Assembly (NCBI RefSeq): GCF_900187615.1
Contig: NZ_FYDO01000003.1
Span: 1-64,000 of the forward strand
Source of the DNA: Pseudomonas sp. Irchel s3f7
GTDB lineage: Bacteria > Pseudomonadota > Gammaproteobacteria > Pseudomonadales > Pseudomonadaceae
Direction: 5' to 3'
DNA: 64,000 nt
Shown: positions 11,884 through 17,982 of the stretch, piece after piece
Layout of the letters: each line of letters starts with the position of its first letter
How positions within the stretch are numbered: the stretch's first letter is position 1
The notes under the pieces: generated by a model
The model's database searches: none
Seen by the model: only the letters and a program-made list of their open reading frames with translations
Told to the model about the DNA's origin: nothing
Translations under genes and position numbers: made by a program

Positions 11884-12606
11884 GTGGAGCAAGAAGCCTG
11901 GCAGGTATTGATTGTGGAGGACGACCAGCGACTGGCCGAACTGACCCGCGATTACCTGGAAGCCAATGGCCTGCGCGTATCGATTGAAGGTGATGGGGCG
12001 TTGGCGGCAGCGCGCATCATCAAGGAGCAACCGGACCTGGTGATTCTCGACCTGATGCTCCCCGGTGAAGATGGCCTGAGCATCTGCCGCAAGGTCCGCG
12101 CCCGTTACGAGGGGGCGATCCTGATGCTCACCGCCCGCACCGACGACACCGACCAGATCCTCGGCCTCGACCTGGGCGCCGACGATTATGTGTGCAAACC
12201 GGTGCGTCCACGCCTGTTGCTGGCGCGTATCCAGGCCTTGTTGCGGCGTAGTGAAGCGCCCGAGGTCGCCCCGGAAAAACAACGGCGCCTGCAGTTTGGT
12301 CCGCTGGTGGTGGACAACGCCTTGCGCGAAGCGTGGTTGCAGGGCAATGGCATCGAACTGACCAGCGCCGAATTCGACCTGCTGTGGCTGCTGGTGGCCA
12401 ACGCCGGGCGCATTCTGTCCCGGGAGGAAATCTTCACCGCGTTGCGCGGCATCGGCTACGACGGCCAGGACCGTTCCATCGATGTGCGGATCTCGCGTAT
12501 CCGGCCGAAGATCGGTGATGACCCTGAGCACCCGCGCCTGATCAAGACGGTGCGCAGCAAAGGGTATCTGTTTGTTCCCGAAGCCTGTGTAGACCCGACA
12601 TTGTGA
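11884..12606 (+). CDS. OmpR-family response regulator, RstA-like
   Basis: This 240-aa regulator has an N-terminal receiver domain with acidic pocket residues in VEDD and phospho-acceptor D56 (VILDLMLPG). A C-terminal winged-helix DNA-binding domain (about 135-232) ends in the usual SRIRPKIGDD...RSKGYLF pattern. It starts at GTG 11884, with AGAGG a few bases upstream. Its stop overlaps the start of the following sensor kinase by 4 nt, so the pair is translationally coupled. Position beside nrdA matches recalled PA1157-PA1158. The signal sensed is unknown. Confidence 0.92.
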   Translation: MEQEAWQVLIVEDDQRLAELTRDYLEANGLRVSIEGDGALAAARIIKEQPDLVILDLMLPGEDGLSICRKVRARYEGAILMLTARTDDTDQILGLDLGADDYVCKPVRPRLLLARIQALLRRSEAPEVAPEKQRRLQFGPLVVDNALREAWLQGNGIELTSAEFDLLWLLVANAGRILSREEIFTALRGIGYDGQDRSIDVRISRIRPKIGDDPEHPRLIKTVRSKGYLFVPEACVDPTL

Positions 12607-14213
12607 ACTCGATCTTCCTGCGCATTTATGGCGGCATGTGCGCTGCGCTGATTCTGGTGGCGGTGCTGGGCGTGCTGGCCATCCACTTGCTCAACCAGGT
12701 GCGTAGCGAGCAGTACCGCGAGCGCCTGGCCCACGGTACGTTTGCGCTGATGGCCGACAACCTGCAACCGATGAACCAGACTGAGCGCCATCGGGCCTTG
12801 CTGGTCTGGGAGCGGTTGCTCGGCATCCCGCTGGCGCTGAAAACCTTCAACGAAACCGATCTGGACCTGACCCAGCGCACCCGCGTTCTGCGCGGCCAGG
12901 CCTTGGTGGAACAGACCGGGCCGCACGCGGCAAAGGTGTATCGGTTGGTCAGCGACCAGGAACAGTTGGTCCTGACGGGCGAGGTGCAGCAAATCAGCGA
13001 GCAACTGGCCCGGGCGACGATCTACCTGTTGGCCGACGAACTGGTGCGCTCGCCTGTGGCGGATCAGCCCAGGCACCTGGCGAAATTAAAAGAGGAAAAG
13101 GGCTTCGGTTTCGACCTGCGGCTGGTCACGGTCGACGAGGCGGACATGGACGAAGACCAGCGCCGTCGTGTGTCCGAGGGTGACACCGTGATGGCGCTGG
13201 GCAAGGGCGGCGATTCGATCCGCGTGTTTGCCGGCATGGTTGGCACGCCATGGGTGCTGGAAATCGGCCCGCTGTATCAAATGAATCCTTATCCGCCGGA
13301 GTGGCTGGTGCTGATTGCCGTCCTCGGGCTGACGCTGATCGGCTTGATCGTTTACCTGCTGGTGCGGCAACTGGAGCGGCGCTTGCGGGGACTGGAATCC
13401 GCCGCCACGCGCATCGCCCAGGGCAGCCTGGAAACCCGTGTGCCGGCACGCGGTGCCGACTCGGTGGGGCGCCTGGCTTCGGCGTTCAACGCCATGGCCG
13501 AGCACTTGCAGCAGTTGCTGGCAATCCAGCGTGAGCTGGTACGCGCGGTGTCCCACGAGTTGCGTACACCGGTGGCGCGCCTGCGGTTCGGCCTGGAAAT
13601 GATTGGCACGGCCACTACGCCACAAGCTTTGGAAAAATATTGCGAGGGCATGGATCACGACATCGAGGACCTCGATCGACTGGTGGACGAGATGCTGACC
13701 TACGCGCGGCTGGAGCAGGGGTCGCCGGCGTTGAACTTCCAGCGCATCGACCTGGATGCCTTGGTCAATCAAGTCATCGAAGAGCTGGCGCCCTTGCGAG
13801 TCGATGTCACGGTGCAACGGGGTTTATGCCTGTCGGCCGCCGACTGTGATGACGCCTGGGTCGAAGCCGAACCGCGCTACTTGCACCGGGCGATCCAGAA
13901 CCTGGTCACCAATGCCATGCGCCACGCGCACTCCCGGGTGACCATCAGTTATCAGGTGGGCCAGCAGCGTTGTCGCGTGGACATCGAGGATGACGGGCCG
14001 GGTGTACCGGAGTTGGCGTGGGAGAAAATCTTCACCCCGTTTCTGCGCCTTGATGACAGCCGCACTCGCGCGTCGGGCGGGCATGGGCTGGGACTGTCGA
14101 TCGTGCGAAGGATCATCCATTGGCACGACGGACGTGCGCTGATCGGCAAGAGCAAAAGCCTGGGGGGGGCGTGTTTCAGTTTGAGCTGGCCGAGGAATCA
14201 AGAGAAACGCTGA
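12603..14213 (+). CDS. Two-component sensor histidine kinase, RstB-like
   Basis: This 536-aa inner-membrane kinase has one membrane helix near residues 5-25 and a second near 237-257, bracketing a periplasmic sensor region of about 210 residues. A HAMP linker follows (about 255-310), then the DHp domain with H318 in RAVSHELRTPVARLR, and an HATPase domain with NLVTNAMRHA and DDGPGV motifs. It starts at GTG 12603, overlapping the response regulator's stop. It is the cognate partner of the RstA-like regulator; the ligand cannot be inferred. Confidence 0.92.
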   Translation: MNSIFLRIYGGMCAALILVAVLGVLAIHLLNQVRSEQYRERLAHGTFALMADNLQPMNQTERHRALLVWERLLGIPLALKTFNETDLDLTQRTRVLRGQALVEQTGPHAAKVYRLVSDQEQLVLTGEVQQISEQLARATIYLLADELVRSPVADQPRHLAKLKEEKGFGFDLRLVTVDEADMDEDQRRRVSEGDTVMALGKGGDSIRVFAGMVGTPWVLEIGPLYQMNPYPPEWLVLIAVLGLTLIGLIVYLLVRQLERRLRGLESAATRIAQGSLETRVPARGADSVGRLASAFNAMAEHLQQLLAIQRELVRAVSHELRTPVARLRFGLEMIGTATTPQALEKYCEGMDHDIEDLDRLVDEMLTYARLEQGSPALNFQRIDLDALVNQVIEELAPLRVDVTVQRGLCLSAADCDDAWVEAEPRYLHRAIQNLVTNAMRHAHSRVTISYQVGQQRCRVDIEDDGPGVPELAWEKIFTPFLRLDDSRTRASGGHGLGLSIVRRIIHWHDGRALIGKSKSLGGACFSLSWPRNQEKR

Positions 14214-14322: not shown

Positions 14323-15057
14323 TCAGGCCTGGATACTGACCAGACTCAACAACTGCCCATCCTCGACCGCAAACTGCGCATCCAGCTCGGTGCCGTTGCG
14401 CCATTCGCTGGACAAGTCTGCAAGCAATCGCAGCCTGATGTGGCCATCCTCAGCCCACTCAAGCACTTCGGCATGCTCGAAATAAAAGCGCTGCTGAACG
14501 ATCGGGTAGAGCGCCTTGAACAGGCTTTCCTTGACCGAGAAGGTCAGCGTCACCCACAACGCCATTTGATCCCGGGGACCGGCCGCCATCCGCTGTAGCT
14601 CCGCCGGGATGAGGATTTCCCCGGCCAGGCGTTCGGCCCGTTCGGCGTTGAGCAGGTTTTCCAGGTCCATACCCAAACCGCGCCAATGACGTTTGTTCGC
14701 GACGATGGCGGCGGCACGACCGGCGCTGTGGGTGATCGAACCGGCGATATGGCCGGGCCAGATCGGGGCCCGGTCTTCGCCAATGGCTGGAATGAAACTC
14801 AGGCCTTCCAGGCGCTGCAGCGCGGCCCGGGCGCACACCCGTCCGGCGAGAAACTCCGCCTGCCGTTTGGCCACCGAGCGTTGGATCGACGCCGGGACTT
14901 CGATGGCGCTGCGGTGGAAATCATCCAGAGCCAGTTGTGAACTGTCGAATTGGGTACTCAACAGGACTGTGTCGGGCAGCACGAACGGCAGCGGCCAATG
15001 GTCATCGAGCGGGGTGCAGCAGGCGGGCAGGGCGGGGGCAAAGTTCATGTCGGGCAT
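14323..15057 (-). CDS. pcpS: 4'-phosphopantetheinyl transferase (PcpS/EntD family)
   Basis: The enzyme transfers 4'-phosphopantetheine from CoA to carrier domains of fatty acid, siderophore or other NRPS/PKS systems. The 244-aa protein shows the family motifs: 'KRQAEFLAGRVCARAAL' near residue 65, 'GEDRAPIWPGHIAGSITHS' (the P1/P2 region with Gly-Asp and SITH), the Mg-binding 'GLGMDLE', and 'FSVKESLFKALYP' (W/FxxKEA/S motif). It resembles P. aeruginosa PcpS from beginning to end (recalled). The start is either ATG 15057 or ATG 15048; the former matches the MRAM-like N-terminus of PcpS. It stands alone, convergent with the RstB-like kinase. Confidence 0.9.
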   Translation of the reverse strand: MPDMNFAPALPACCTPLDDHWPLPFVLPDTVLLSTQFDSSQLALDDFHRSAIEVPASIQRSVAKRQAEFLAGRVCARAALQRLEGLSFIPAIGEDRAPIWPGHIAGSITHSAGRAAAIVANKRHWRGLGMDLENLLNAERAERLAGEILIPAELQRMAAGPRDQMALWVTLTFSVKESLFKALYPIVQQRFYFEHAEVLEWAEDGHIRLRLLADLSSEWRNGTELDAQFAVEDGQLLSLVSIQA

Positions 15058-15171
15058 TTTGCCGGGTTGCCTTGGGGCTGGGTAGTGCAAAGGTTGAGAT
15101 CGGCGGTGTCGCTTTCGCGAGCAGGCTCGCCCCCTCGGGACTTTCGGGGGGGCCTTATCCAATGTGAGGCG

Positions 15172-15210
15172 GTTCAGCCGAGGTTCAGAGTGCGTTCAGG
15201 GGGAGTTCAG
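15172..15210 (+). promoter_or_regulatory. Four GTTCAG repeats at exact 11-bp spacing: PhoP-box array for oprH-phoPQ
   Basis: GTTCAG begins at 15172, 15183, 15194 and 15205, giving hexamer-N5-hexamer units as in PhoP boxes. A fifth, degenerate GTTACG lies in register at 15216, inside the palindrome GGTTACGTAACC (15215-15226). TAACCT at 15222 could serve as a -10. The array ends 60 bp before the oprH start. OprH-PhoPQ autoregulation by PhoP is established in P. aeruginosa. Confidence 0.7.
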
Positions 15211-15270
15211 GGCCGGTTACGTAACCTTGCCTCGTACCCAAAACCCATACGGCACATAAGGAACTTCACC

Positions 15271-15961: not shown

Positions 15962-16639
15962 ATGAAACTGCTGGTCGTCGAAGATGAAGCGCTGTTGCGC
16001 CATCACCTGCAAACCCGCCTGACGGAGAGCGGCCACGTGGTCGAGTCCGTGGCCAATGCCGAGGAGGCGCTGTATCAAACCGCGCAGTTCAATTTTGATC
16101 TGGCGGTGATCGACCTCGGTCTGCCGGGGATGAGCGGGCTCGACCTGATCCGTCAGTTGCGGTCGACCGGCAAGAGCTTTCCGATCCTGATCCTCACCGC
16201 CCGCGGCAACTGGCAGGACAAAGTTGAAGGCCTGGCCGCCGGGGCCGACGATTACGTAGTCAAACCGTTCCAGTTCGAAGAACTCGACGCCAGGCTCAAT
16301 GCCTTGCTGCGTCGTTCCAGCGGGTTCACCCAGTCGACCATCGTCGCTGGTCCATTGTTGCTCGACCTCAATCGCAAGCAGGCCTCTCTCGATGAGCAAC
16401 CGCTGGCACTAACGGCGTATGAGTACCGCATCCTCGAATACCTGATGCGCCATCACCAGCAAGTGGTACCCAAGGACCGCTTGATGGAGCAACTGTACCC
16501 GGACGACGGCGAGCGTGATCCGAACGTGATCGAAGTGCTGGTCGGTCGTCTGCGTCGAAAACTGGAAGGTCCCGGAGGCTTCAAACCGATCGAGACCGTG
16601 CGCGGCCTCGGCTACCTGTTCAATGAGCGCTGCACTTGA
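15962..16639 (+). CDS. phoP: Response regulator PhoP
   Basis: PhoP is the OmpR-type regulator of the low-Mg2+/cationic peptide response. The 225-aa protein has a receiver domain with VEDE acidic pocket and D51 (VIDLGLPG), the K in 'YVVKPF' and a C-terminal winged helix (about 125-222). It lies 88 bp after oprH and overlaps phoQ by 4 nt (TTGA). Gene order oprH-phoP-phoQ identifies it securely. Expression is probably autoregulated through the GTTCAG array. Confidence 0.95.
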   Translation: MKLLVVEDEALLRHHLQTRLTESGHVVESVANAEEALYQTAQFNFDLAVIDLGLPGMSGLDLIRQLRSTGKSFPILILTARGNWQDKVEGLAAGADDYVVKPFQFEELDARLNALLRRSSGFTQSTIVAGPLLLDLNRKQASLDEQPLALTAYEYRILEYLMRHHQQVVPKDRLMEQLYPDDGERDPNVIEVLVGRLRRKLEGPGGFKPIETVRGLGYLFNERCT

Positions 16640-17982
16640 TCCGCTCGCTTCGCATTCGCTTGATGCTCGCCGCCACGATCCTGGCGGTGTTGTTCATGCT
16701 GGCGTTGTTGCCGGCGATGCAGGGCGCGTTCAGCCTGGCCTTGCAGGATTCCATCGAGCAGCGCCTGGCGTCGGACGTCACCACGTTAATTTCCGCCGCC
16801 CGGGTGGAGAACAACAGCCTGATGATGCCGGCGCAATTGCCCGACGAGCGTTACAACCTCACCGACAGCCGCCTGCTCGGCTACATCTATGACCGCGATG
16901 GGCATCTGGTCTGGCGTTCCAGGGCCACGCAGGAAGAGCACATCAACTACAAGCCGCGTTATGACGGGCGTGGTAACGAGTTCGCGCGGATCAGCGAAGC
17001 CAATGGCCAGGAGTTCTTCGTCTATGACGTCGAGATCAAACTGATTGGCGGAAAAAGTGCGGCATTCAGCATCGTGGCGCTGCAACCGGTGCGTGAATAC
17101 GAAACCACCCTTGAAGGTCTGCGCGAAAATCTCTACCTGGGCTTCGGCGCAGCGTTGCTGGTGTTACTGGCCTTGCTGTGGGGCGGTCTGACCTGGGGCT
17201 TGAAGGCGTTGAGCCGCTTGAGTCAGGAGCTGGACCAGATCGAGGGCGGCACCCGCGAGAGCCTCAGCGAGGAGCATCCCCGGGAACTGCTGCGCCTGAC
17301 CGGCTCCCTGAACCGCTTGCTGCACAGCGAGCGCGAGCAGCGCAGTCGCTACCGTGATTCACTTGATGACCTGGCCCACAGTCTGAAAACCCCGTTAGCA
17401 GTGCTGCAAGGTGTCAGCGAGGACATGGTGCAACGCCCTGAAAATCGTGAGCAGGCCTGGGTGCTGCAAACCCAGATCGAACGCATGAGCCAGCAGATCA
17501 GCTATCAACTGCAACGCGCGAGTCTGCGTAAAAGCGGTCTGGTGCGGCATCAGGTACGTCTGCGGCCGGTGTTGCAAAGCTTGTGCGACACACTGGACAA
17601 GGTTTACCGCGACAAGCGTGTGCGGGTTGCTTTCGATCTGCCGGACGATTGTCATGTGCCGATCGAGCAGGGCGCGTTGCTGGAGATGATGGGTAATCTG
17701 CTGGAAAACGCGTATCGGCTATGCCTCGGCGAGATCCGGATCAGCGTGCGCGAAATTCCCCGTGACATCGAGTTGTGCGTCGAAGACGATGGTCCTGGCG
17801 TGCCCGCGGACCAGCGTGCACGAATCCTCCAGCGCGGCGAGCGTCTGGATCGTCAACATCCGGGGCAGGGCATCGGCCTGGCGGTGGTCAAGGACATCAT
17901 CGAGAGCTACAACGCCAAACTGACGCTGGGGGACTCACCCATGGGCGGGGCGGCGTTCAGGATTCATTTTTCGGTGGTTTAG
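16636..17982 (+). CDS. phoQ: Sensor histidine kinase PhoQ
   Basis: PhoQ senses divalent cations and antimicrobial peptides and phosphorylates PhoP. The 448-aa protein has a first membrane helix (about 10-32), a periplasmic sensor of about 130 residues with acidic patches, a second helix (about 167-187), a DHp domain with H248 in DLAHSLKTPLAVL, and a HATPase with 'MMGNLLENAYR' and 'EDDGPGVP'. The start is TTG 16636, overlapping the phoP stop; no better ATG exists before the membrane helix. REPs follow. Confidence 0.95.
   Translation: MIRSLRIRLMLAATILAVLFMLALLPAMQGAFSLALQDSIEQRLASDVTTLISAARVENNSLMMPAQLPDERYNLTDSRLLGYIYDRDGHLVWRSRATQEEHINYKPRYDGRGNEFARISEANGQEFFVYDVEIKLIGGKSAAFSIVALQPVREYETTLEGLRENLYLGFGAALLVLLALLWGGLTWGLKALSRLSQELDQIEGGTRESLSEEHPRELLRLTGSLNRLLHSEREQRSRYRDSLDDLAHSLKTPLAVLQGVSEDMVQRPENREQAWVLQTQIERMSQQISYQLQRASLRKSGLVRHQVRLRPVLQSLCDTLDKVYRDKRVRVAFDLPDDCHVPIEQGALLEMMGNLLENAYRLCLGEIRISVREIPRDIELCVEDDGPGVPADQRARILQRGERLDRQHPGQGIGLAVVKDIIESYNAKLTLGDSPMGGAAFRIHFSVV

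Follow-up and report, generated by a model that had tools for sequence, protein, structure and literature searches.

Four in-register predicted PhoP half-sites precede oprH-phoP-phoQ across Pseudomonas, and the outer two tend to be absent from species without oprH

Why does the oprH-phoP-phoQ operon of this strain stand behind four copies of a hexamer, when the PhoP box of P. aeruginosa is published as a pair? In the window, by which we mean the whole 64-kb stretch of DNA analysed, the initial annotation had reported four perfect GTTCAG units every 11 bp before oprH, and this is exactly what is observed (Table 1). In the 300 bp ahead of oprH the array reaches the full score of 24/24, while none of 5000 dinucleotide shuffles scored above 18, which places it well outside what chance would give. 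Throughout the 6.06-Mb genome the four-unit pattern (at most three mismatches) was found only at the oprH array, the second match being the same array shifted by one unit. Perfect GTTCAG pairs occur at three further places in this genome; none of these has an adjacent third unit matching at 5/6 or better, and one of them (L032) has TTTCAG two units upstream.

Table 1. Features of the oprH promoter and operon, in positions of the 64-kb window
Feature	Position	Strand	Basis
PhoP half-site unit 1 (outer pair)	15172..15177	+	GTTCAG exact; in 101 loci GTTCAG 75, ATTCAG 26
PhoP half-site unit 2 (outer pair)	15183..15188	+	GTTCAG exact; GTTCAG in 91/101 loci
PhoP half-site unit 3 (inner pair)	15194..15199	+	GTTCAG exact; GTTCAG in 89/101 loci
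PhoP half-site unit 4 (inner pair, closest to -10)	15205..15210	+	GTTCAG exact; in 101 loci GTTCAG 74, GTACAG 20, ATTCAG 7
12-bp palindrome GGTTACGTAACC	15215..15226	.	perfect dyad
Degenerate in-register unit 5, GTTACG	15216..15221	+	4/6 match
Predicted -10 element TAACCT	15222..15227	+	[CT]ANNNT at the same offset in relatives
Likely ribosome-binding site of oprH, AAGGA	15258..15262	+	read from sequence
oprH, outer-membrane protein, 200 aa	15271..15873	+	E 6.4e-68 to PDB 2lhf, Outer membrane protein H1
phoP, response regulator	15962..16639	+	best NCBIfam model PhoP, 250.9 bits, under cut-off 336
phoQ, sensor kinase	16636..17982	+	best NCBIfam model PhoQ, 276.1 bits, under cut-off 497

The annotation took the hexamers for PhoP half-sites, a reading that agrees with published data. 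The accessible text of PMC3156716 gives the P. aeruginosa PhoP consensus as GTTCAGNNNNNRTTCAG, along with gel shifts and mutated repeats for the retS promoter, and that of PMC7916210 gives the PhoP ChIP-seq motif as G/ATTCAG. The window array holds three overlapping exact matches to the PhoP box written as the direct repeat GTTCAG-N5-RTTCAG. The hexamer, its spacing, the operon and the regulator are all shared with the oprH-phoPQ promoter of P. aeruginosa as described in the accessible parts of these papers; in the same parts, however, the PhoP box appears as a pair, with no four-unit array and no link to the presence of oprH (PMC3156716, PMC7916210). A four-unit description of the oprH promoter was likewise not found in the literature listings and running text searched. 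Repeats of 11-bp period are already known for PhoB, BqsR and PhoP; what is added here is a candidate, testable rule of repeat number at the oprH promoter.

In order to see how widely the array is kept, we turned to a sample of 199 genomes of the genus. An OprH match was present in 146, giving 101 strong loci (among them L131, in which oprH is frame-shifted) and 45 weak ones, of which 40 were fetched and 5 read through pattern loci. Every one of the 101 strong loci carries four in-register units at 5/6 or better, with all four perfect in 52, three in 25, two in 22 and one in 2. The annotation had regarded four repeats as exceptional, and this part of it does not survive; the conservation in relatives on which its proposal depended, on the other hand, is there in all 101 loci. 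Four units are the standard Pseudomonas arrangement, and this strain is ordinary. In a set of 80 loci from named relatives, some records of which may be the same strains as unnamed ones, every locus has a run, four units long in 53 and five units long in 27. By OprH, the closest named relatives are Pseudomonas sp. GM49, P. laurylsulfatiphila, P. laurylsulfativorans, P. jessenii and similar, and the strain very probably belongs to this group of Pseudomonas.

Conservation follows the hexamers, which have a mean information of 1.87 bits, compared with 0.73 for the spacers and 0.44 for the 11 bases ahead of the array; TTCAG is near-invariant across loci, while the first hexamer base varies more. 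An unstable tandem repeat could be ruled out as the origin of the array, since the spacers differ while the hexamers hold. The distance to the promoter is fixed as well: in 100 of the 101 loci exactly 11 nt separate the end of unit 4 from a [CT]ANNNT hexamer (TANNNT in 85), the next commonest offset being 16 nt (18 loci). Five loci also have a -10-like hexamer directly after unit 4 (offset 0), and their register could be one unit off. Examined by eye, the window promoter has no -35-like hexamer at the usual distance, and transcription would start near 15234. As for the fifth, degenerate unit claimed by the annotation, GTTACG does stand in register, but it matches at only 4/6, such a unit reaches 5/6 in only 20 of the 101 loci, and it abuts the -10, so that it is probably no site in this strain. 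Unit 5 at 5/6 was found in 15 of the 20 loci whose unit 4 is GTACAG versus 5 of the 74 with GTTCAG there, which may be compensation or shared descent.

The four units are not kept alike once oprH is missing. Altogether, phoP or OprH was present at 182 loci, namely the 101 strong and 40 weak ones, 18 more that have an array, and 23 that have PhoP but lack a four-unit array; among the matches listed, 44 genomes are without the four-unit array, 17 of them also without PhoP at E 1e-80. We sorted 180 of these loci, leaving out L307 and L308 (phoP, no array), into class A (oprH by alignment), class B (another frame of at least 80 aa before phoP), class C (phoP first) and class D (neither); by script, L219 fell into class A through alignment cover (its frame is 101 aa) and L131 into class B. 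The inner pair (units 3 and 4) was observed in 101/101 loci of class A, 52/52 of B, 25/25 of C and 1/2 of D, that is, in 178/178 genus loci of classes A to C. The corresponding numbers for the outer pair (units 1 and 2) are 100/101, 47/52, 5/25 and 2/2. The single miss in class A, L124, has four units in the survey, but was anchored here on another -10-like hexamer.

Leaving aside the two class D loci (L214 and L263), the outer pair is therefore present in 147/153 loci with a reading frame before phoP versus 5/25 with phoP first (Fisher p = 7e-17 for A+B against C, relatedness ignored). When relatedness is considered, on a phoP tree of 215 rows that joins genus and family loci and omits L214, L264, L307, L308, L315, L316 and L317, there are 9 changes of gene state and 13 of the outer pair. 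The tree offers 6 supported independent pairs, of which 3.3 show the outer pair going with the gene, 0.1 show it going against the gene and 2.7 show no difference (median p 0.25); on this tree the contrast has the right direction and is not significant, there being too few independent losses. Exceptions occur on both sides, as the outer pair is missing from five class B loci despite their frame and present in five loci of class C. In three of the latter (L258, L261, L271) a remnant of a short oprH-like gene remains, as if gene loss had preceded the loss of the outer pair. It thus seems that the outer two repeats tend to be absent from species without oprH.

Could the outer pair serve the divergent gene instead? 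This was ruled out, as all 101 loci keep the pair whatever the neighbour is: a hydrolase-like gene (76), a PPTase gene (10) or another one (15). Since it is kept whatever lies upstream, the outer pair belongs to the oprH side.

Beyond the genus sample, a family search covered 298 genomes, of which 191 had a match, and 40 loci were fetched, hand-picked to cover other genera (36 from other genera, 4 from the same genus). A run of four units is found in 27 of the 40, of six in one and of two in 12. In nine of the 12 two-run loci, all from another genus, units 1, 2 and 4 are perfect and unit 3 has decayed to 3-4/6; in the remaining three (L315-L317) a pair is present, but the 4.5-kb stretch contains no phoP. 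In L214, too, units 1, 2 and 4 are present and unit 3 is decayed. Because of these nine family loci and L214, the inner pair is not strictly inviolable.

How, then, would such a promoter work? We favour, at a probability of roughly 70%, a PhoP-activated, autoregulated oprH-phoP-phoQ promoter with two tandem dimers, in which the inner pair activates and the outer pair boosts. Room for at least two PhoP dimers had been proposed by the annotation, and four half-sites do suffice for two. The four head-to-tail half-sites would be bound by two phosphorylated PhoP dimers lying along the same side of the helix. The dimer on the inner units 3 and 4 (about -40 to -24) would stand in for the missing -35 element and bring RNA polymerase to the weak -10 TAACCT in the class II manner, and the dimer on the outer units 1 and 2 (about -62 to -46) would lift occupancy and output, probably for the sake of abundant OprH. 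For this strain, we infer the number of dimers, the class II activation and the booster role; the assignment of the inner pair as the putative activation site and of the outer pair as the putative booster is made by analogy with the BqsR promoter PA14_04180 and with second PhoP boxes in Salmonella.

According to the accessible text of PMC3335776, the PhoP box lies 12 nt from the -10 in Salmonella architecture I (11 nt in yrbL), and an additional upstream PhoP box raises output. The likeness to architectures I and II as given there is a direct repeat one helix turn before the -10, at 11 nt in the window; the one-base difference, 11 versus 12 nt, arises from our own alignment of GTTCAG with GTTTA. 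A direct-orientation box 11 nt before the -10 is what a class II arrangement calls for (11-12 nt in architecture I). Architecture I has a single box, whereas the window promoter has two tandem ones, and it is therefore a relative of architectures I/II rather than a plain member of I. The second Salmonella box, moreover, lies at a distance (26 to 30 nt in the examples of that text) and may be reversed, while the window units are contiguous (PMC3335776). In the BqsR promoter PA14_04180, which has four pentamers, units 3 and 4 are critical and 1 and 2 additive according to the accessible text of PMC4682146. That text also describes BqsR operators of P. aeruginosa in which up to five pentamers recur every 11 bp and the final one overlaps with the -35 region; these operators differ in having TTAAG rather than TTCAG and Fe(II) as the signal. 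The PHO boxes of PhoB, in the accessible part of PMC4415409, are likewise 11-nt direct repeats bound head to tail, with several boxes at some promoters, but their sequence is another one and their signal is phosphate.

Other explanations for the four units are less convincing. The annotation expected them to bind PhoP cooperatively and to give a steep response to Mg2+, and contiguous, in-phase half-sites would indeed permit contacts between dimers; the closest measured precedent, the four-repeat BqsR promoter, nevertheless gained from its units 1 and 2 additively (accessible text of PMC4682146), and we regard a cooperative effect as unlikely, though not far-fetched. That a second OmpR-family regulator, e.g., BqsR responding to Fe(II), also reads an array of the same period seems quite unlikely to us. 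P. aeruginosa oprH is said to carry a BqsR-responsive operator (PMC4682146, accessible text), and one GTTAAG unit is present in five of the 101 loci; on the other hand, the BqsR pentamer TTAAG occurs in none of the four window units, which all read TTCAG and so depart from the BqsR consensus TTAAG-N6-TTAAG, and the accessible text of PMC3156716 calls oprH exclusively PhoP-controlled among the genes of that study. It is very unlikely that the inner pair alone works and that units 1 and 2 are redundant, without effect on output: an inner pair by itself does occur in 20 of the 25 class C promoters and in five class B loci, yet the outer units are equally conserved wherever oprH is present (100/101), beside any neighbour.

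The annotation had suggested that the palindrome GGTTACGTAACC might bind a second regulator, for instance PmrA. It does form a perfect dyad of 12 bp next to the promoter, and we consider its role as an operator hardly credible. Of 181 loci only that of this strain has the palindrome, which also shares bases with the -10; the 64-kb window contains 17 perfect 12-bp palindromes where 15.6 are expected, and at the site 5 or 6 of the 6 base pairs match in 2 of 101 loci, window included. With a dyad not conserved in relatives, the operator was rejected, and we read the palindrome as having arisen by chance where unit 5 and the -10 meet.

In a P. aeruginosa-like genome (G317) there are four units at oprH and five ahead of a PagP-like gene, a pair before arnB plus a separate weaker run of three upstream of it, a pair (one mismatch) at a DNA-3-methyladenine glycosylase gene, and a pair at a gene taken from its context as 52340/52350. 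ArnB and the glycosylase were named by family; the PagP-like protein had no family hit and is presumed to be one by resemblance. At the slyB site no forward-strand pair was found, and a near-pair on the reverse strand was noticed only on visual inspection. In PhoP ChIP-seq of PA14, as listed in the accessible text of PMC7916210, oprH is the strongest of the listed peaks (17.23-fold), with PA14_46900 (pagP) at 15.03, arnB at 6.85, the slyB region at 6.24, 21860/21870 at 5.29, 52340/52350 at 4.87, 11970/11980 at 4.17 and pilY1 at 2.85. The two longest G317 arrays match the two strongest PA14 peaks, which for so few sites and a different strain is suggestive only, and one perfect pair of G317 (L360) has no match among the listed peaks. 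Four perfect units are also found in L322, a further locus, where OprH shares 98.9% identity with the P. aeruginosa chain.

We tentatively propose, and would not quite put even odds on it, that the number of half-sites is an evolved gain dial, where two units provide for phoPQ autoregulation, the outer two serve the outer-membrane gene that leads the operon and decay once it is lost, and arrays of four to six units distinguish the strongest PhoP targets (oprH, pagP-like, slyB-pagP). Nature provides orthologous promoters with two, four and six units, in which the effect of repeat number on strength, threshold and steepness of the Mg2+ response is measurable, and such variants let one ask if the outer pair is there for oprH and not for the autoregulation of phoPQ.

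Several other arrays were noted. L348 (G373, same genus) has six perfect GTTCAG units before oprH in the 11-bp register. In L252 (G194) a second four-unit array precedes two genes, the first for a SlyB-like lipoprotein and the next PagP-like, and the second such array of L255 (G027) lies ahead of a PagP-like gene. In the genome of the window, a perfect GTTCAG pair is situated on contig 43 of G000 (L033, 10505-10521) between divergent genes which we take to resemble EptA and an EamA-type transporter, and it is a candidate further PhoP target.

Many species (L212-L251 and L253-L271, e.g., L224) have, where oprH would be, a gene for a secreted OprH-like protein that is short (about 85-146 aa) and whose end falls near residue 104-140 of OprH. 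Neither OprH itself nor these short proteins are covered by a Pfam family, hence Pfam is uninformative on them. The median dN/dS is 0.21 for the 102-aa group (24 loci) and 0.33 for the 142-aa-like group (16 loci), with 0.12 for full OprH (12), and the short protein looks to be under selection and not decaying. Upstream of the array, a secreted hydrolase-like gene adjoins it divergently in 68 of the 80 named relatives. In the window (region 14323-15171) the neighbour is a PPTase-like gene with no hydrolase-like gene, as in 12 of the 80. This PPTase-like gene is flanked by two two-component systems, phoP-phoQ on one side and, on the other (11884-14213), a pair that scores best with the NCBIfam models RstA and RstB, in both cases under the cut-off.
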